27,479 nucleotides of DNA from IMG/VR virus record IMGVR_UViG_3300024323_000017, positions 1 to 27,479 of that record. One strand, written 5' to 3'. Positions 553-18,974 of this stretch are shown in pieces. The notes below the pieces were generated by a model. That model made no database searches and was not told where the DNA came from. It saw nothing but the letters and a program-made list of their open reading frames with translations. The translations under genes were made by a program, and so were the position numbers. How positions within the stretch are numbered: the first letter of the stretch is position 1; each line of letters begins with the position of its first letter. The DNA comes from a virus.

Positions 553-574
553 AAGATATCCGTCATTGGATGCC
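553..574 (-). promoter_or_regulatory. 22-nt palindromic motif, copy 1
   Basis: On the minus strand this reads GGCATCC-AATGAC-GGATATCTT, with inverted repeat ATCC/GGAT around a 6-nt centre. It lies 13 nt upstream of the start at 539. Four further copies (3534-3555, 6771-6792, 10269-10290, 18953-18974) align without gaps in the sense direction of their downstream gene, with consensus G-R-Y-ATCC-AAYRAY-GGATAYCT. A phage-specific promoter, an operator or a translational hairpin are all possible. Confidence 0.55.
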
Positions 575-577
575 TGT

Positions 578-3533: not shown

Positions 3534-3555
3534 CAGATATCCGTCATTGGATACC
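3534..3555 (-). promoter_or_regulatory. 22-nt palindromic motif, copy 2
   Basis: The minus strand reads GGTATCC-AATGAC-GGATATCTG, differing from copy 1 at two positions only. It lies 15 nt upstream of the start at 3518, in the 59-nt gap between two leftward genes. Here the palindrome is extended (TATCC with GGATA). Confidence 0.6.
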
Positions 3556-3577
3556 TATGTAATTTAATGCAAGCAGG

Positions 3578-6645: not shown

Positions 6646-6770
6646 GCCACTTCGCCCCGTTCACGGTCGGCGCGGTTGACATGGCACGAGACCCCCCCAC
6701 CCCCACACGCAGCGCGGCCACACGGCAGGTTGCATCCTCACCAAATTCCGCAAGATTTTTGAATCCAGAA

Positions 6771-6792
6771 GATATCCACCGGCGGATACCTT
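6771..6792 (+). promoter_or_regulatory. 22-nt palindromic motif, copy 5 (most diverged centre)
   Basis: The plus strand reads GATATCC-ACCGGC-GGATACCTT, with the TATCC/GGATA arms intact and a GC-richer centre than the other copies. It lies about 105 nt upstream of the first rightward gene, further than in the other four cases, and just before the sigma70-like promoter. The rest of 6519-6898 holds a C-rich tract at 6691-6704, a CCGCG-TCTT-CGCGG hairpin near 6574-6588, and no credible gene. Confidence 0.45.
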
Positions 6793-8430: not shown

Positions 8431-8636
8431 TGCCTGAAGAGCATAATTTCCTTGGCGCGGATGAAGCGACAGAAATCAACCACAGACAAGCGATTGTTGA
8501 GTTTGAGGATGATGTCTTTCCTGCGTACCGCGACAAGGGAATTACGCTCGGTGAGGCAATGATAATTTACAACCTGGTAACTGTTTACAATCGGCTCGGT
8601 GACATTCAATCACTCCTTGAAGAGAAGTATGCCTGA
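8430..8636 (+). CDS. Small acidic helical protein before TerL
   Basis: This 68-residue protein starts at the ATG at 8430 within TAATG. Longer in-frame starts upstream would overlap two genes and are rejected. The product (MPEEHNFLGADEATEINHRQ, then a helix EAMIIYNLVTVYNRLGDIQSLLEEKYA) is acidic and probably helical. TerL starts inside its last codons. No function is assigned. Confidence 0.65.
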   Translation: MPEEHNFLGADEATEINHRQAIVEFEDDVFPAYRDKGITLGEAMIIYNLVTVYNRLGDIQSLLEEKYA

Positions 8637-10269
8637 ACAAGATATCCCATATCTGGACGAAAGCATCTCGAAGCTGCCCTCGGACATCCGAGCAGACCTC
8701 GCAGAGCGCGGCCGGAAGGATCTGTTCTTCTTCAATCAAGGTGTGCTGAAAATGCGTGATATGACAGAGGATTGTCATGGGCCCTTGTGTGCATATGCCA
8801 CGCTGAACGTCAAGCAATTCAAGATGATGCTGATGCCCCGAGATCACCTCAAAACTTCGGTGATAACTATTGGTGGCACTATGCAGAAGATTGTGCAGAA
8901 TCAGGAAAACCGCATACTGATCGGCAACGAGAGCGGAACCAACGCCAATCGTATGCTAAGGTCGATAAGACACCACGCAGAAGGCAACAGGGTATTCAGG
9001 GCGTTGTATTCCGAAGTGATCCATAAAGACACACGCAAGGTCAGATGGAATGACTCCGAGCTGGATTTTGTCCGCGAAGGGATGTATCCCGAGCCCACTG
9101 TCGATTCGATAGGTATGACTGGGGCTGTCACAAGCCGCCATTATACTCATATCACCTATGATGATCCTATTTCAGAGGAAGCTGTCAAGTCGGAGAAGGT
9201 GATGCAAGACACAATAGGCCGCATGAGCGCAGCCATGTCCTTGCTTGTGGATCCTTCCAAAGACACGATATGGCTTGTCGGCACCCGATGGGCGCTGCAT
9301 GACGTATACTCCCATTGGCAGAATGTCTATCGTGAGAAGCTAGGCAGGTTCGTCCGAGCCGCCCTAGAATTCAATGAGAAGACTGGCATGCTTGAGCCGA
9401 TATGGCCTGAGCGGTTTACGCCAGATGTGCTAGCCCTGAAGCGTGCCACGTATGACTCCGAGTATAAGTGGTCATGCTTGATGATGAACAATCCCAGAAA
9501 TGTCGAGCTACAGGATCTGAATGTAGATGATCTGATGTTCTGGGAGTGGGATGCGCGCTGTGAAAACTGCATTATGTATAAGCGAGATGGCACAATACTT
9601 CGTATAGTTCCCTTTGATTTGCTGGATGTCACCACGACAGTTGATCTGGCGCCAGCCGAGAAGATGTCATCCGATAGGAATTGCATCACGACTGTCGGCG
9701 TGACACCCTGGAATGAAGCCATTGTGCTAGAATCATGGGCCAGACGTTGCACAGCCTTGGAGGTGATCCAACATCTATTTGAGGTTAAGGAGCGTTATCA
9801 GCCCCGAGCCTTCGGGATCGAAGATGTAGGCTATCAGAAGGTGCTGAAAACGTTTATCAAGCAGAAGATGAACGAGGACATGACTTATCTAAACATTGTG
9901 CCCCTTCCTGCCAAGGGTAAGAAAGAGCAGCGTATCCGTGGATTGCAGCCCTATATGGCGACAAGCCGAATATTCATCAGGGCAAACATGCACATCCTTC
10001 GGAACGAGATGTCGGAGTTTCCGCTGGGTGAGCATGATGACGCAGTCGAGGGCTTGAGTATGCACACAATGCTTTGGCGAGGACAGATGGCACCTGCGGC
10101 TAGGGCAAAGTATCGGGAGTCAGAGCAGAAGCTGATCCGCCGGATTCAGCAGAATCAGCTGCAGATCTCTGGCCCTCCGAATGTGCATCCCTCGAAGTGG
10201 ATTCAGCCAGAGCTTGACCAGGATGAGTTTGATTGGCCACAGGCACCTATCATAGAAGTTGTGGCATAG
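8629..10269 (+). CDS. terL: Terminase large subunit (TerL)
   Basis: The 546-residue motor protein pumps DNA into the prohead and cuts it. The ATPase domain shows a Walker A-like MPRDHLKTS at residues 69-77 (Lys75), a Walker B HITYDDP at 174-180 and a coupling motif WLVGTRW near 215-221. The RNase H-like nuclease domain has Asp339 in TTTVDLAP, Glu398 in FGIEDVG and Asp470/471 in EHDDAVEG, the three expected acidic positions. The ATG at 8629 overlaps the previous stop and has GAAGAG before it; an in-frame ATG at 8599 lies deeper in the upstream gene. All key residues are present, so the protein should be active. Confidence 0.95.
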   Translation: MPEQDIPYLDESISKLPSDIRADLAERGRKDLFFFNQGVLKMRDMTEDCHGPLCAYATLNVKQFKMMLMPRDHLKTSVITIGGTMQKIVQNQENRILIGNESGTNANRMLRSIRHHAEGNRVFRALYSEVIHKDTRKVRWNDSELDFVREGMYPEPTVDSIGMTGAVTSRHYTHITYDDPISEEAVKSEKVMQDTIGRMSAAMSLLVDPSKDTIWLVGTRWALHDVYSHWQNVYREKLGRFVRAALEFNEKTGMLEPIWPERFTPDVLALKRATYDSEYKWSCLMMNNPRNVELQDLNVDDLMFWEWDARCENCIMYKRDGTILRIVPFDLLDVTTTVDLAPAEKMSSDRNCITTVGVTPWNEAIVLESWARRCTALEVIQHLFEVKERYQPRAFGIEDVGYQKVLKTFIKQKMNEDMTYLNIVPLPAKGKKEQRIRGLQPYMATSRIFIRANMHILRNEMSEFPLGEHDDAVEGLSMHTMLWRGQMAPAARAKYRESEQKLIRRIQQNQLQISGPPNVHPSKWIQPELDQDEFDWPQAPIIEVVA

Positions 10270-10290
10270 ACATCCAACAATGGATACCTG
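10269..10290 (+). promoter_or_regulatory. 22-nt palindromic motif, copy 3
   Basis: The plus strand reads GACATCC-AACAAT-GGATACCTG and ends exactly at the ATG of the next gene (10291). It fills the only gap between TerL and the membrane/lysis island. The GGA of the right arm is at SD distance, so a hairpin formed by the two arms would mask the ribosome site. Confidence 0.6.
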
Positions 10291-10575
10291 ATGGCAAATA
10301 TAGACTACCAAGGCATCGCAATAGTCATAGGAGCTTTAGGAACTTTAGTTGTCACAATAGGCAATGCGGCACTCAGCTGGCGCCAATCGAAGAAAGCTGA
10401 AATCAACAAGAATGAGGCTATTGCAGCACGCACGGAGCAGACACAAAAGATTGACCATATCACTCATCTTGTGAATAACAGGTCGGATCAACAAGACGCT
10501 AAGATTGATGATCTGACGAAGAAGTTGGCTTCAGCGAACACTGCACTAGATAACAGCGGTAAAGGTCCTGCGTAA
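10291..10575 (+). CDS. Small single-pass membrane protein, holin candidate
   Basis: The 94-residue product has one hydrophobic segment at about residues 8-29 (GIAIVIGALGTLVVTIGNAALSW). A basic then mixed-charge helical tail follows (RQSKKAEINKNEAIAARTEQ, later KIDDLTKKLASANTALD) with coiled-coil periodicity. This resembles one-TM holins and spanin-like proteins of phages. It opens the island between TerL and portal, directly behind palindromic copy 3, and the next gene overlaps its stop (TAATG). A holin would permeabilise the inner membrane for the lysin at 12248-12928. Confidence 0.6.
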   Translation: MANIDYQGIAIVIGALGTLVVTIGNAALSWRQSKKAEINKNEAIAARTEQTQKIDHITHLVNNRSDQQDAKIDDLTKKLASANTALDNSGKGPA

Positions 10576-10922
10576 TGCAGAAGCGACGCGAGCATGACGA
10601 CACTGGCGAGAACCAAACCTATGTCTATACCCGCGCTGAAGATAGGTCACAGTGGATTCGACTGTCGTATATTCTGGACAAGTACAAGCCTATCATTTGG
10701 CTTCTGTGGGCAGCAGCTATCGCGTTTGGGTTTGGCTTCAAGACTCCCAAGCAAGCTATCGCAGAGGTCAAAGACAGCGTGGATTCAGTGAAGGTGCGCA
10801 CGGCAACGCTTGAAATGCTGGTTAGGTCTCAGCATGAAGATATACAGAATTTGCTTCGGCTCAGATGTCTAGATGTAGTAGGTCCTAAGCAGGCTGACAA
10901 GTGCTTCCAGGAGAACCCGTAA
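10575..10922 (+). CDS. Membrane protein with coiled-coil tail, holin/spanin candidate
   Basis: In the 115-residue product one transmembrane segment lies at about 38-56 (YKPIIWLLWAAAIAFGFGF), after a charged 35-residue N-terminus. A helical stretch follows (AIAEVKDSVDSVKVRTATLEMLVRSQHEDIQNLLRLR), with two Cys near the end (RCLDVVG, KCF). The topology suits an inner-membrane spanin-like or second holin subunit. No nested Rz1-type lipoprotein frame is seen. It overlaps both neighbours by TAATG junctions. Confidence 0.6.
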   Translation: MQKRREHDDTGENQTYVYTRAEDRSQWIRLSYILDKYKPIIWLLWAAAIAFGFGFKTPKQAIAEVKDSVDSVKVRTATLEMLVRSQHEDIQNLLRLRCLDVVGPKQADKCFQENP

Positions 10923-11125
10923 TGTTAGTCAATCCGACCACGACTGCAGATCATCCTGACGTTAGGCCAGGAGGATCCATCAACAACCCTATGGTACAGG
11001 CAGCCATATGGGCGTTCTATGAAAACAATCCAGATCGAGTGATCCTCAAGGTGTCGTTCATCAAGATCCGAGTCAAGGATCTCCGCGTGCTATTTGAACT
11101 CATCGCAGGCCCCGAGCCAGTCTGA
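10922..11125 (+). CDS. Hypothetical protein, 67 residues
   Basis: The ATG at 10922 lies in TAATG and has AGGAG upstream. The product (MLVNPTTTADHPDVRPGGSI, later VQAAIWAFYENNPDRVILKV and KDLRVLFELIAGPEPV) looks like a small alpha/beta domain. It sits between a membrane protein and the cysteine protease with overlapping codons on both sides. It could be a partner or inhibitor of one of these; this is only a guess from position. Confidence 0.65.
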   Translation: MLVNPTTTADHPDVRPGGSINNPMVQAAIWAFYENNPDRVILKVSFIKIRVKDLRVLFELIAGPEPV

Positions 11126-11916
11126 TGCCAGGCACCTCGATCGTTCCGCGCAAGATCAAGCGCTACGGCTGGATTCCAGATCTTCCTGACAATAGGGATA
11201 CTCTGTGGCATCCAGGTCGAAGGGCTGTCAAGCTACCGAGCAAGGTAGATTTGCGCACGACAGGCTTTATGCCTGATGTTTACGATCAAGGAGATCTTGG
11301 CTCATGCACTGCTAACGCAATCGGCGGGGCTTATGAGTACGAGCAGAAGCGACAAGGCCTGACAGATTATCAGCCATGCCGGCTGTTCATCTATTATGAA
11401 GAGCGTCGGTACATCAACGCCCTGGGCTATGATTCAGGTGCTAACATCCGAGATGGGTTGAAGGTAGTCAATAAGCTCGGTGCTCCGCATGAGACGCTTT
11501 GGCCTTATGACATCAACAAGTATGCTCAGATGCCCTCGGCTGACGCATACGAAGATGGACTGAAGCATCAAGCCACTGGCTATGCCTCGGTAGATAATCG
11601 GATTCAGTTGTCTGTGAAGCAAGCCCTCGCGATGGGTATTCCTATCGTGTTTGGCTTCACAGTGTATTCGTGGTTCGAGAATCCAGATGCGAATGCTGTA
11701 TGCACTCCGATCAAGGGCCAGGCTACGCTGGGTGGGCATGCAGTGATGCTCGTGGGATATGAGCGCATGCATGGCTCCCAGAAAACATGGGGCATAGTGC
11801 GGAACTCATGGGGGCCTAGTTGGGGTGACGCAGGGTATTGCTACATGCCCCTCAACTGGATCTGCAACTATGCGAACGCTGACGACTTCTGGGTTATCAA
11901 CCAGGTGGAAGCATGA
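11125..11916 (+). CDS. Papain-family (C1A-like) cysteine protease
   Basis: The 263-residue product contains the full papain signature. The oxyanion Gln55 and nucleophile Cys61 are in YDQGDLGSCTANAIGGAYEY, general base His205 is in LGGHAVMLVGYE, and Asn227 is in IVRNSWGPSWGDAGYCYMP. The N-terminal 45 residues (GWIPDLPDNRD...LPSKVDLR) match the segment that precedes the catalytic domain in bacterial members; there is no signal peptide and no long inhibitory propeptide. Substrates could be virion proteins, host proteins or cell-wall peptides. Its place among membrane, nuclease and lysin genes suggests a late function. The ATG at 11125 overlaps the previous stop (TGATG). Confidence 0.9.
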   Translation: MPGTSIVPRKIKRYGWIPDLPDNRDTLWHPGRRAVKLPSKVDLRTTGFMPDVYDQGDLGSCTANAIGGAYEYEQKRQGLTDYQPCRLFIYYEERRYINALGYDSGANIRDGLKVVNKLGAPHETLWPYDINKYAQMPSADAYEDGLKHQATGYASVDNRIQLSVKQALAMGIPIVFGFTVYSWFENPDANAVCTPIKGQATLGGHAVMLVGYERMHGSQKTWGIVRNSWGPSWGDAGYCYMPLNWICNYANADDFWVINQVEA

Positions 11917-12251
11917 ATCCGCTGGTCATCCTTCTTGCATGCCTTACGCTGGAGATTCCTTCAGCCCAAGTCAAGCGTGTGCATGACGGAGACACTTTCA
12001 CCCTGTATAGCGTTGGATTCACGAACGAAGAACAGGTGCGAGTCCTTGGCGTCAACACCCCAGAGCTTGGCACAGGTCCTGCTGCAGACTCAGCAACGGC
12101 TTTCACTCGTCGGTGGCTTGCAGCTGGCCCATTCAGCATCTCAGTCTGCAAACGCGAAAAGTATGGCCGGCTTCTGGCCGCAGTCACACGTAATGGAAAG
12201 AACTTAGCCGACACGCTCATCACCCTCCACTTGGGAGTAAAGGATCCATGA
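11913..12251 (+). CDS. Secreted staphylococcal-nuclease (TNase) homologue
   Basis: The 112-residue product starts MNPLVILLACLTLEIPSAQ, a short signal peptide; LLAC could be a weak lipobox at Cys10. The SNase fold follows: VHDGDTFTL (residues 23-31), VRVLGVNTPEL (42-52) and KREKYGRLLAAV (80-91). Arg43, Glu51 and Arg86 match the catalytic Arg, Glu and Arg of the family. Position 48 is Asn, where the staphylococcal enzyme has a calcium-binding Asp. The enzyme would hydrolyse DNA or RNA in the periplasm or at the cell surface. It overlaps both neighbours (ATGA). Confidence 0.85.
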   Translation: MNPLVILLACLTLEIPSAQVKRVHDGDTFTLYSVGFTNEEQVRVLGVNTPELGTGPAADSATAFTRRWLAAGPFSISVCKREKYGRLLAAVTRNGKNLADTLITLHLGVKDP

Positions 12252-12928
12252 CACTGCCAGGGAAGGTAATTGAGGTTGCAGATGGCACGCATGGCTTTGA
12301 TGCCAACTCATTCATTAGTCCAGAGCTATCGAAAAAGTTCAGGAATGATGGCATGCGATTCTGCATTCGCTATGTCCCCAGGGTCAAGCCAAATCCCAAT
12401 GACATCTCGGCAAGCGAGGCGGCTGGCATCCTGGATTGTGGCTTGGGCTTGATGCTGGTTCAGCATGTACATCCTGATTCGGAGCGCGAAGGATGGTCGC
12501 CGACTGGGCTGATGGGAAGTCAGTATGGCTCATTTGCAGCCAGCTCTGCATTTGTGGTCGGCTACAGGTATGGCGGAATGCTTTGGTGCGACCTGGAGGG
12601 TGTCAAGCCACATACTGATCCCCGAGACGTGATTGCCTTTTGCAACAACTGGTATCACGAAGTTGGTCAGGCCGGATTCACACCTGGACTCTATGTCGGG
12701 TTTGATGCAGGCCTGGATGCGAATGATCTGTACTACAAGCTGAAGTTCTCTCACTACTGGAGAGCCTACAATCTGAACCAGGACCAGTGGCCGGCTGTGC
12801 GTGGCTTGCAGATGACACAAGGCAGGCAGCTCACCGTGCATGGAGTCCAGATCGACCCCGACACTGTGCATCGGGATGCAAAGGGTGGACTTCCGCTTAT
12901 GCTCGTAGACATGGAGTTTACACCATGA
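12248..12928 (+). CDS. Glycoside-hydrolase-like lysin (DUF1906 / Rv2525c type)
   Basis: In this 226-residue protein GFDANSFIS near the start, RFCIRYVPR, the SASEAAGILDCGLGLMLVQHVH segment, LWCDLEGV at about residues 110-118 and GFTPGLYVGFD follow the order of the DUF1906 glycoside-hydrolase-like TIM-barrel domain, found in phage endolysins and actinobacterial secreted proteins. Acidic residues in DLEG are probable catalytic residues. No signal peptide or separate wall-binding domain is visible, so it should leave the cell through holin lesions. It is most likely the endolysin that degrades peptidoglycan. Confidence 0.8.
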   Translation: MTLPGKVIEVADGTHGFDANSFISPELSKKFRNDGMRFCIRYVPRVKPNPNDISASEAAGILDCGLGLMLVQHVHPDSEREGWSPTGLMGSQYGSFAASSAFVVGYRYGGMLWCDLEGVKPHTDPRDVIAFCNNWYHEVGQAGFTPGLYVGFDAGLDANDLYYKLKFSHYWRAYNLNQDQWPAVRGLQMTQGRQLTVHGVQIDPDTVHRDAKGGLPLMLVDMEFTP

Positions 12929-13389
12929 ATCGCAGACTTGACTACCAGCTGGATCTTCCACTGTTTGTGGAGCCAGAATGCGCTTCGAAGCCAGAATGCC
13001 ACTCCAGACTCTCCCCGCAAGATATTTTCACGGAGAGCGTAGTTAGTACGCCACGCAGGACTCAGAATGCCAAGTGCTCTAGTGTCACAAATCTCAGGAC
13101 CCCAGCTGCTGGTTATGATCGAGCAGCTGAATATGTATCGCAGCAGGTATCATCCTGCCAGATATTGGCGGATGTACCGCTTTCTGCGCAGCTGCTTCTA
13201 TCATTCGAGGGAGTGGATAATTCTGTCCAGGTCGGTCAGGAAAGAAGCTGGCTGCTGTCAGAAGAACTTCCAGCACAAAGGGCGTTTGCACTGCCATCAC
13301 GTGAAGAAACTCTGGAGTCATCCACATCTGGGACTTGCCAGAAGCAACTTGCTGGTGATATGTCAGTACTGTCACCGAAAGGAACATAA
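12925..13389 (+). CDS. ORF overlapping the HNH gene, doubtful beyond its first third
   Basis: The ATG at 12925 overlaps the lysin stop (ATGA) with GGAG upstream, a good start context. The frame opens MNRRLDYQLDLPLFVEPECA, then SKPECHSRLSPQDIFTESVV, and stays open to 13389. From 13067 on it shares the DNA with the HNH frame, which carries clear family motifs. Either the two are truly overprinted, or the 12925 frame is the remains of a gene replaced or disrupted by the HNH insertion. No family is recognised. Confidence 0.35.
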   Translation: MNRRLDYQLDLPLFVEPECASKPECHSRLSPQDIFTESVVSTPRRTQNAKCSSVTNLRTPAAGYDRAAEYVSQQVSSCQILADVPLSAQLLLSFEGVDNSVQVGQERSWLLSEELPAQRAFALPSREETLESSTSGTCQKQLAGDMSVLSPKGT

Positions 13390-13399
13390 ACGTGGCTGA
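13067..13399 (+). CDS. HNH-family endonuclease
   Basis: The 110-residue product has an N-terminal basic helical region (MYRSRYHPARYWRMYRFLRS). The HNH core follows: SREWIILSRSVRKEAGCCQK, LHCHHVKKLWSHP (catalytic His pair), SNLLVICQYCHRKEH (Asn and final His with a Cys-x2-Cys pair). Packaging-associated HNH nucleases are common near terminase and portal genes and assist DNA cutting in some phages; a homing-type role is the alternative. The ATG at 13067 follows AGGA; the frame is closed just upstream. Its stop overlaps the portal GTG. Confidence 0.8.
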   Translation: MPSALVSQISGPQLLVMIEQLNMYRSRYHPARYWRMYRFLRSCFYHSREWIILSRSVRKEAGCCQKNFQHKGRLHCHHVKKLWSHPHLGLARSNLLVICQYCHRKEHKRG

Positions 13400-15437
13400 T
13401 GTAGAGTATTCAAACGATCAAGCTCCTGTGGTGCAGTCTGTCACAGTTGATGATATGCCGGTCAAGGGTGAGAAACCTCAGACAGCATATCCGGCTGCGA
13501 TGCTGCAGATCAGCAATGAGGCCAAGGAAGATCTACTCACGTGGATAGATATTTGGTTTCAGGCCTGCAAGGGCTCCCACCAAGCTAAGCTCACCGAGTG
13601 GTCAGCACAGGAAGTCAGCTATCGAGCTCGCTCGTCGGGTCCTCTGAGCGTTCCTTTCCTCGGGGCCTGTGGCGACATTGTGCCTGTCACAGCAATGGCA
13701 GTGGATCCTGTTCACGCACGCCTTGACACTGGCATATTCAAAGCGGATCCTGTGTTCAGACTGAAGCCTCTCAAGAAGAAGACCTCTGCCTACGTAGATA
13801 GTCTAGAGCGATGGATTGAATACTATCAGAAACACAAGTTGCAACTTCGCAAGATAGCTTCGCCTCGCTTGCTTGAACTCACGAAGCATGGCACGATGAT
13901 CTTCAAGACGGTTTATGAGCATGAGAAGTACAACATCATGACTTATAATGCCAAGTGGAAGGTCATAAAGAAGGAAGTCACGAGGTTCAAGGGTCCTCGC
14001 GTCTTCGGAATCAGCCTTGCAGACTTCATGTTTCCGCCAGGCTATCAAGACGTGCAGGATTGCCCCATCACTTTCGAGAAGCAGAACTACTTCTACACAG
14101 ATATTCGGGTGCTTGAGGCTTCCGGAAAGCTCACAAATTGTGCAGCTGTCAATGACCAGAAGATGGTTGTCCGAAATGAGCTTGAAGTCACCCGTCAAGA
14201 ATCTGCAAATCACACAGAAACTGGCACTACCAATAGGGATCTGATCGAGCTTTGGGAAATATGGTGCGACTATGACATCAATGGAGACGGACTGCCGGAG
14301 AAGCTAGTCATCACTTGGCACGAAGCCACCAGAACTCTGCTGCAGCTGCGCTACAACTGGTATTTCCATCAGCGGAAGCCTTACACTGTCGTGCCTTATA
14401 GCGTGTCGAATGACAGCTTGTATGGCGTCGGCATCGGTGAGATGACCGCGTTCTTCCAGGATGCACAGACGAAGTGGCATCGTATGGCCACTGACAATAC
14501 CTACTTGGCAAATATCAGGATGTTTATTGCCAAGAAGGAGTCTGGCATCGAGGAAGTCCCGAAGCTTTACTCGGGTAAGACCTTCTTCGTAGACGATCCG
14601 TCTAAGGACTTCATTCCCTTTGCAGCCGCCAACACCTACCCGTCGACGCTTACTGAGCGCCAAAACCTATTCGGACTGGCTGAGAAGCGGACTGGAGTCT
14701 CTGACTACCTTACTGGACGTGAGTCTCCTATTGTGGGCTCTCGTGCCACAGCTACTTCCACAGTCGCACTTATTCAAGAAGGCACAAGGCGTGTGGAAGA
14801 AGTGCTTGAGAACATTCGAGTCGGGTTCTCAGAAGTCATAGAGAACTGTATCTACATTTGGATTCAGTATGGACTTGATGGCTTGGATGACACAGTCTTT
14901 GGTTCGGATAATGTAGCCACAGATCTGAAGGAATTCTTCGATTCTGTAACCGAACAGAATGTTCATGGTGCGCTGGCTGTGGATCTGTCAGCCACAGATG
15001 CTGCCACAAATAGATCTATCCAGCAGCAAGTCCAATTGGCCATCATTCAGACGATGATGACCTATCTGGACAAGTTGGTTCAAGCGGGCGAGCTTGCAAT
15101 TCAAGCCGCCCAGACAGCTCCTGAGCTTACTGAATTAATTGGCGAAGTCATGACTGCCGCTCGCAAGATGTTCCGTGACTTGCTGCAGAAGTATGACATC
15201 CCGAATCCTGATGATTATCTACCTGATCTGGAGAAGTACCTAAATGCCGCTGCCCAAAGACAAGGAGGGCCTGCTAGCCCTCAGGGACCAAATGCAGGAA
15301 CTCAAGGAGATGCAAGCATTCCGGCTCCTTCTGGAGAAGTATTCCAATCTCCAGTCTCAGTCGCAGCGACTACTGGAATCGGGTACGGAAATGGCCCTGG
15401 TGTACCGCAGCCAGGGGGAGGTCGCGGCTTACCGTAA
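13392..15437 (+). CDS. Portal protein (P22-like)
   Basis: This 681-residue protein begins at a GTG (13392) with AAAGGA 10 nt before it, overlapping the HNH stop. Portal features include the wing/stem region with LIELWEIWCDYDINGDGLPEKLVITWHE and the conserved PYTVVPYSVSNDSLYGVGIGEM. A later segment TGVSDYLTGRES...SRATATSTVALIQEG follows, and then the long C-terminal helices (QQQVQLAIIQTMMTYLDKLV). It would form the dodecameric ring at one vertex, through which TerL packages DNA. The last 65 residues are Gly/Pro/Ala-rich and share their DNA with another gene (15244-15507), which may explain their low complexity. Confidence 0.9.
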   Translation: MADVEYSNDQAPVVQSVTVDDMPVKGEKPQTAYPAAMLQISNEAKEDLLTWIDIWFQACKGSHQAKLTEWSAQEVSYRARSSGPLSVPFLGACGDIVPVTAMAVDPVHARLDTGIFKADPVFRLKPLKKKTSAYVDSLERWIEYYQKHKLQLRKIASPRLLELTKHGTMIFKTVYEHEKYNIMTYNAKWKVIKKEVTRFKGPRVFGISLADFMFPPGYQDVQDCPITFEKQNYFYTDIRVLEASGKLTNCAAVNDQKMVVRNELEVTRQESANHTETGTTNRDLIELWEIWCDYDINGDGLPEKLVITWHEATRTLLQLRYNWYFHQRKPYTVVPYSVSNDSLYGVGIGEMTAFFQDAQTKWHRMATDNTYLANIRMFIAKKESGIEEVPKLYSGKTFFVDDPSKDFIPFAAANTYPSTLTERQNLFGLAEKRTGVSDYLTGRESPIVGSRATATSTVALIQEGTRRVEEVLENIRVGFSEVIENCIYIWIQYGLDGLDDTVFGSDNVATDLKEFFDSVTEQNVHGALAVDLSATDAATNRSIQQQVQLAIIQTMMTYLDKLVQAGELAIQAAQTAPELTELIGEVMTAARKMFRDLLQKYDIPNPDDYLPDLEKYLNAAAQRQGGPASPQGPNAGTQGDASIPAPSGEVFQSPVSVAATTGIGYGNGPGVPQPGGGRGLP

Positions 15438-18949: not shown

Positions 18950-18952
18950 CAA

Positions 18953-18974
18953 GATATACAACAACGGATACCTA
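18953..18974 (+). promoter_or_regulatory. 22-nt palindromic motif, copy 4
   Basis: The plus strand reads GATATAC-AACAAC-GGATACCTA; the final A is the first base of the ATG of the next gene. One arm base differs (TATAC for TATCC). It occupies the single gap between head and tail modules, as copy 3 does between packaging and lysis modules. Confidence 0.55.

Follow-up and report, generated by a model that had tools for sequence, protein, structure and literature searches.

Between the genes for its terminase large subunit (TerL) and its portal protein, an uncultured phage carries two putative membrane proteins, a papain-type protease, a nuclease with a putative export signal, a wall hydrolase and an HNH endonuclease. 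What this gene set serves, and whether it works as one system, is the question raised by the window analysed here, i.e. the whole 27,479-base IMG/VR virus record IMGVR_UViG_3300024323_000017. On balance, we read the interval as a late lysis cassette into which the papain and the SNase-family nuclease have probably been inserted, the papain plausibly and the nuclease possibly aiding lysis; the HNH gene would be independent of it.

The interval is bordered on the left by TerL (8635-10269; phrog_38, E 2.7e-61; close relatives 45-61% identical) and on the right by the portal gene (13392-15437; PF23899 SU10_portal, 102 bits; relatives 39-65% identical), and all genes of the window named here read on the plus strand. 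Six open frames, at 10291-10575, 10575-10922, 10922-11125, 11125-11916, 11913-12251 and 12248-12928, succeed one another with overlaps of 1, 1, 1, 4 and 4 nt, and each of the six has a coding signal. There is no overlap between the HNH gene and the gene upstream of it: the earliest start codon of the former, at 13067, lies 138 nt past the stop of the DUF1906 gene. The first-pass annotation had described seven overlapping genes from 10291 to 13399, which holds for the first six but not for the HNH gene. The gap before the latter is bridged only by a 154-aa frame (12925-13389) already called doubtful: Pfam and PHROG searches returned no homologue or family match for it, its coding score is -0.02 bits per codon and its synonymous-codon signal is weak (z 2.9). 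The four enzyme identities proposed earlier were confirmed, as papain C1 (62.7 bits), SNase (23.4 bits, cut-off 21), Rv2525c/DUF1906 (59.8 bits, cut-off 27.2) and HNH (23.3 bits) all exceed their Pfam cut-offs. No RNA family or tRNA was found in the window.

To see what this position holds elsewhere, we turned to relatives. TerL and portal searches gave about 100 locus matches, many of them the same contigs found twice, and after removal of repeat records 44 contigs with a bounded TerL-portal interval were left (the window and 43 relatives). This interval is a variable slot in the phage group. Ten contigs have a peptidoglycan hydrolase but no HNH there, 19 an HNH but no hydrolase, 14 neither, and the window alone both. 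Hydrolase and HNH are thus nearly mutually exclusive (Fisher p 0.006, on a set in which some contigs are near-copies and with profiles partly built from these same slots). The hydrolases are of the M15 type in L003, L008, L010, L015 and L208, CHAP-like in L006 and L007, amidases in L016 and L203, and DUF1906 in L201. Six of the seven slot hydrolases used as queries matched PHROG lysis families; the CHAP-like protein of L006 matched none and was placed by its similarity to that of L007. Several are accompanied by small membrane proteins. These comparisons support the view that the slot serves lysis in several relatives and that the interval of the window would be a late lysis cassette.

In the window, the hydrolase is a DUF1906/Rv2525c GH25-like muramidase (12248-12928; PF08924), a family that PhaLP lists among muramidase-type lytic domains (PMC8310338). 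It shares this domain with other Rv2525c/DUF1906 lysins but differs from them in being a stand-alone domain without recognisable wall-binding domain. It was the only protein modelled. The AlphaFold model, built from three sequences (mean pLDDT 64, with the first two thirds or so reliable and the C-terminal third unreliable), matches 1sfs and Rv2525c (4pmn) and, less strongly, GH25 endolysins of phages (best E 3.7e-7). A search with the single sequence found no match among viral contigs or phage records, and PF08924 is absent from all 50 related records; the orthologue of L201, 46% identical, surfaced only via the portal profile. Since this orthologue occupies the corresponding position in L201, and nine other relatives carry M15, CHAP-like or amidase endolysins there, the DUF1906 enzyme is, judging from homology and position, very probably the endolysin of the cassette. 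The earlier proposal of a lysis region with DUF1906 as its lysin is borne out to this extent.

The L201 slot (IMGVR_UViG_3300049298_000004) is the most informative one. From TerL to portal it encodes two TM proteins, a 73-aa protein alike to the 67-aa product of 10922-11125 (shuffle z 9.9) and the DUF1906 enzyme, whereas papain, SNase and HNH are all absent from it; its second TM protein is also of a different type from that of the window. The same cassette therefore exists, at the same position, without the two extra enzymes. The L015 slot contains a mem2 homologue, a holin-like protein, a homologue of the 67-aa protein, a further TM protein and an M15 endolysin. From the comparison with these two slots, the window appears as an L201-type lysis cassette with papain and SNase placed between the 67-aa protein and the endolysin, and HNH behind.

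The small proteins of the cassette are less well defined. The first, mem1 (10291-10575, 94 aa), is a holin candidate with one clear N-terminal TM segment (best 19-aa hydropathy 2.07) and a polar tail, and it shows a weak resemblance to the gene that opens the L201 slot (shuffle z 3.8). The second, mem2 (10575-10922, 115 aa), has a coiled region, two C-terminal cysteines and a hydrophobic segment that is only marginal (19-aa mean 1.47), although the homologue from the slot of L015 (34% identity; tblastn 1.7e-8) scores as one TM. Of the two membrane proteins announced in the first-pass annotation, one is thus clear and the other rests on a marginal segment in the window. Neither matched a holin family in Pfam or PHROG searches (mem1 at E 0.1). 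The 67-aa protein is conserved in lysis slots, with homologues in L015 and L201 and weaker ones in L007 and L010. Proteins of the mem2 type also occur in L015 (4093-4431), L010 (6639-6983) and L006 (1820-2119), the likeness to the last two being much weaker than to L015; all have a membrane segment at the N-terminus and a pair of cysteines at the C-terminus, and possibly represent an unrecognised lysis protein family.

The first inserted gene (11125-11916) encodes a xylellain-type papain (C1A; PF00112) of 263 aa with no signal peptide seen. Its catalytic Q-C-H-N set is intact, Q55, C61, H205 and N227 being invariant in the family alignment. The best solved match is 3ois (E 3.3e-51; next best structure 3.6e-11), the xylellain of Xylella fastidiosa. 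Both are short papains with an N-terminal extension, whereas xylellain is bacterial and not tied to lysis. Among the 44 slots papain is found in the window only, and the 22 TerL-relative records contain no papain-family domain. The second inserted gene (11913-12251) encodes an SNase-family nuclease of 112 aa (PF00565; phrog_452, E 5e-18), for which no homologue was found in any relative retrieved. Its N-terminus is hydrophobic and lipobox-like (LLAC; hydropathy 2.70 over 11 aa), without a positive n-region, so that export is plausible. It reads NTPE at the site where the Staphylococcus aureus nuclease has DTPE. Because papain is in no other slot, gain of both genes by insertion is the simpler reading, the alternative being their loss in the L201 lineage, and we infer the direction of change on this ground.

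According to the model that we propose, mem1 and mem2 would form the holin or membrane part of the cassette and open the membrane, and the DUF1906 muramidase would reach the wall via these lesions and cut glycan strands. Papain and SNase, lying between the 67-aa protein and the endolysin, would share the expression of the latter. The papain would be made in the cytoplasm and released together with the endolysin, most likely helping lysis through cleavage of envelope proteins or of peptide links, and the SNase, with its putative export signal, would most likely attack released or periplasmic DNA.

The main rival, which keeps a considerable share of the probability, restricts the lysis cassette to mem1, mem2, the 67-aa protein and the DUF1906 enzyme, papain and SNase being horizontally acquired passengers of a permissive late slot, engaged in counter-defence or in turnover of host proteins or DNA and with no role in lysis. 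Several observations agree with it, among them the restriction of papain to a single slot and the lack of SNase homologues mentioned above. Moreover, peptidases of the xylellain type have reportedly passed from bacteria to Caudoviricetes in independent transfers (PMC10380794), so the presence of a papain in a phage is not new. The family is also widespread: our survey matched 239 viral and 295 bacterial loci, with mostly unrelated contexts. From the 80 viral loci kept (54 non-redundant), 125 adjacent proteins were scanned and proved heterogeneous, and most viral papains searched do not adjoin a lysis gene. In a permutation test, TM neighbours of papain were not significantly in excess (19 of 54 loci vs 15.9 expected, p 0.18).

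Against passengers without lysis role stand, first, the seamless stop/start overlaps, which suggest that co-expression has been kept, and second, the links between papain and lysis in other viruses. The annotated endolysin of Alicyclobacillus phage MMB025 (XXN61434.1, 753 aa) consists of papain, Big_1, DUF1906 and PG_binding_1 domains. As in the window, papain and DUF1906 are combined, but in one fused protein with two further domains and with no SNase. A search for further papain-DUF1906 fusions returned only a second copy of this protein, and the fusion is thus that of one phage. In THSA-485A, papain lies directly behind a GH25 endolysin, and in L096, L100, L054, L114, L053, L068 and L110 it adjoins, or lies within a few genes of, CHAP, GH19, Phage_lysozyme, Phage_lysozyme2 or Amidase_2 domains. 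When papain was placed at random within each record, a distance of at most 2.5 kb to a lysis domain, observed in 7 of 15 records, was expected in 2.0 (P 0.0011). The enrichment is weaker at 1.5 kb (P 0.04) and 5 kb (P 0.03), and is partly post hoc, the lysis families having been picked after inspection of the neighbours; with four families alone the outcome was mixed (P 0.10, 0.014 and 0.12), and addition of CHAP and PG_binding_1 made it stronger. Terminase, used as control, was not enriched (P 1.0 at 1.5 kb, 0.24 at 2.5 kb and 0.14 at 5 kb). These data give moderate support to a lysis role for part of the papain family, and such a role appears plausible for the papain of the window. The earlier suggestion of a protease in lysis is supported by the MMB025 fusion, the adjacencies and the distance test, and weakened by the many papains found away from lysis genes.

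It is very improbable, in our opinion, that all seven genes, HNH included, form one co-adapted multi-enzyme envelope-breakdown system, as first proposed. The genes are indeed contiguous, mostly overlapping and placed behind one conserved 22-bp element. However, in L201 and L015 the cassette lacks papain, SNase and HNH, and the order of the seven genes, sought in the slots of relatives, is not conserved. Independent scattering of the genes, which would speak against one system, was found in part, in that papain elsewhere is mostly distant from lysis genes. The HNH (13067-13399; PF01844; phrog_144, E 4e-11) is a member of a distinct family of slot genes: an alignment with 11 HNHs of this slot shows invariant HH and CxxCH motifs and includes a further H, and this family occurs in 19 other slots, but together with a lysin in the window only. 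We regard it as a slot gene in its own right, probably of homing or packaging type, outside the lysis genes. The one-system proposal is thus largely refuted, while its remark that the combination is unusual stands.

Beside the slot HNH, a basic protein of about 56 aa (type MPLKxGxSxKTxSxNIxEFHKGxTYAxTxSKFGKERADAQAIA) was observed in L021, L023, L024, L027 and L217, and a shorter variant of it in L030.

More improbable still is a papain acting as head-maturation protease, which its location between TerL and portal, beside scaffold and capsid genes, might suggest: we reject it because relatives whose records (some of them partial) contain no papain-family gene have nevertheless kept portal, scaffold and capsid, and because the structure closest to this papain is xylellain.

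The motif noted earlier ahead of these genes is real. It is a 22-bp dyad-symmetric element, AGACATCC-N6-GGATACCT, at 10268-10289, directly before the first slot gene. Five copies, one of them inexact, are present in the window (554-575, 3535-3556, 6770-6791, 10268-10289 and 18952-18973), against a chance mean of 0.23-0.41 for two search patterns. Relatives have kept it as well (L004 at 9967; L015 at 4081 and 10535; L016 at 15874; L201 at 7041; L203 at 1798 and 7276). In the form AGnnATYC-N6-GRATACCT, there are 24 distinct matches in the phage group, including those of the window, and none in 1.2 Mb of control loci or in shuffled sequences. The two arms covary between genomes, reading TCC/GGA or TTC/GAA. 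The element often adjoins a start codon, as at the first slot gene, the portal gene and the gene that follows the capsid block, and no ribosome-binding site is obvious between the two. It is a candidate operator or promoter, or an RNA hairpin, and to our knowledge it is undescribed.

Compared with canonical holin-endolysin cassettes of tailed phages, that of the window likewise combines small membrane proteins with a peptidoglycan hydrolase that has no signal peptide, all in overlapping genes, but it lies between TerL and portal and contains the inserted papain and SNase. A cassette with a papain and a nuclease added is unusual and not a conserved new system. A literature search of limited scope found no report of C1A proteases in phage lysis, and PhaLP, whose peptidase clusters are M15, M23, C39, U40, C70 and YkuD, has no entry for a C1A papain domain (PMC8310338). 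We would go further only tentatively, and with more doubt than belief: xylellain-type papains might recur in phage lysis as a protease component not catalogued so far, which would break envelope proteins together with the hydrolase, separate here and fused in MMB025, with an exported nuclease as an additional helper in the phage of the window. The pair formed by L201 and the window, the same cassette without and with the two extra genes, is a natural comparison that makes the question testable. Should the protease indeed aid lysis, holin-endolysin models would gain a step in which proteins are cut, and enzyme-based antibacterials a new type of domain.
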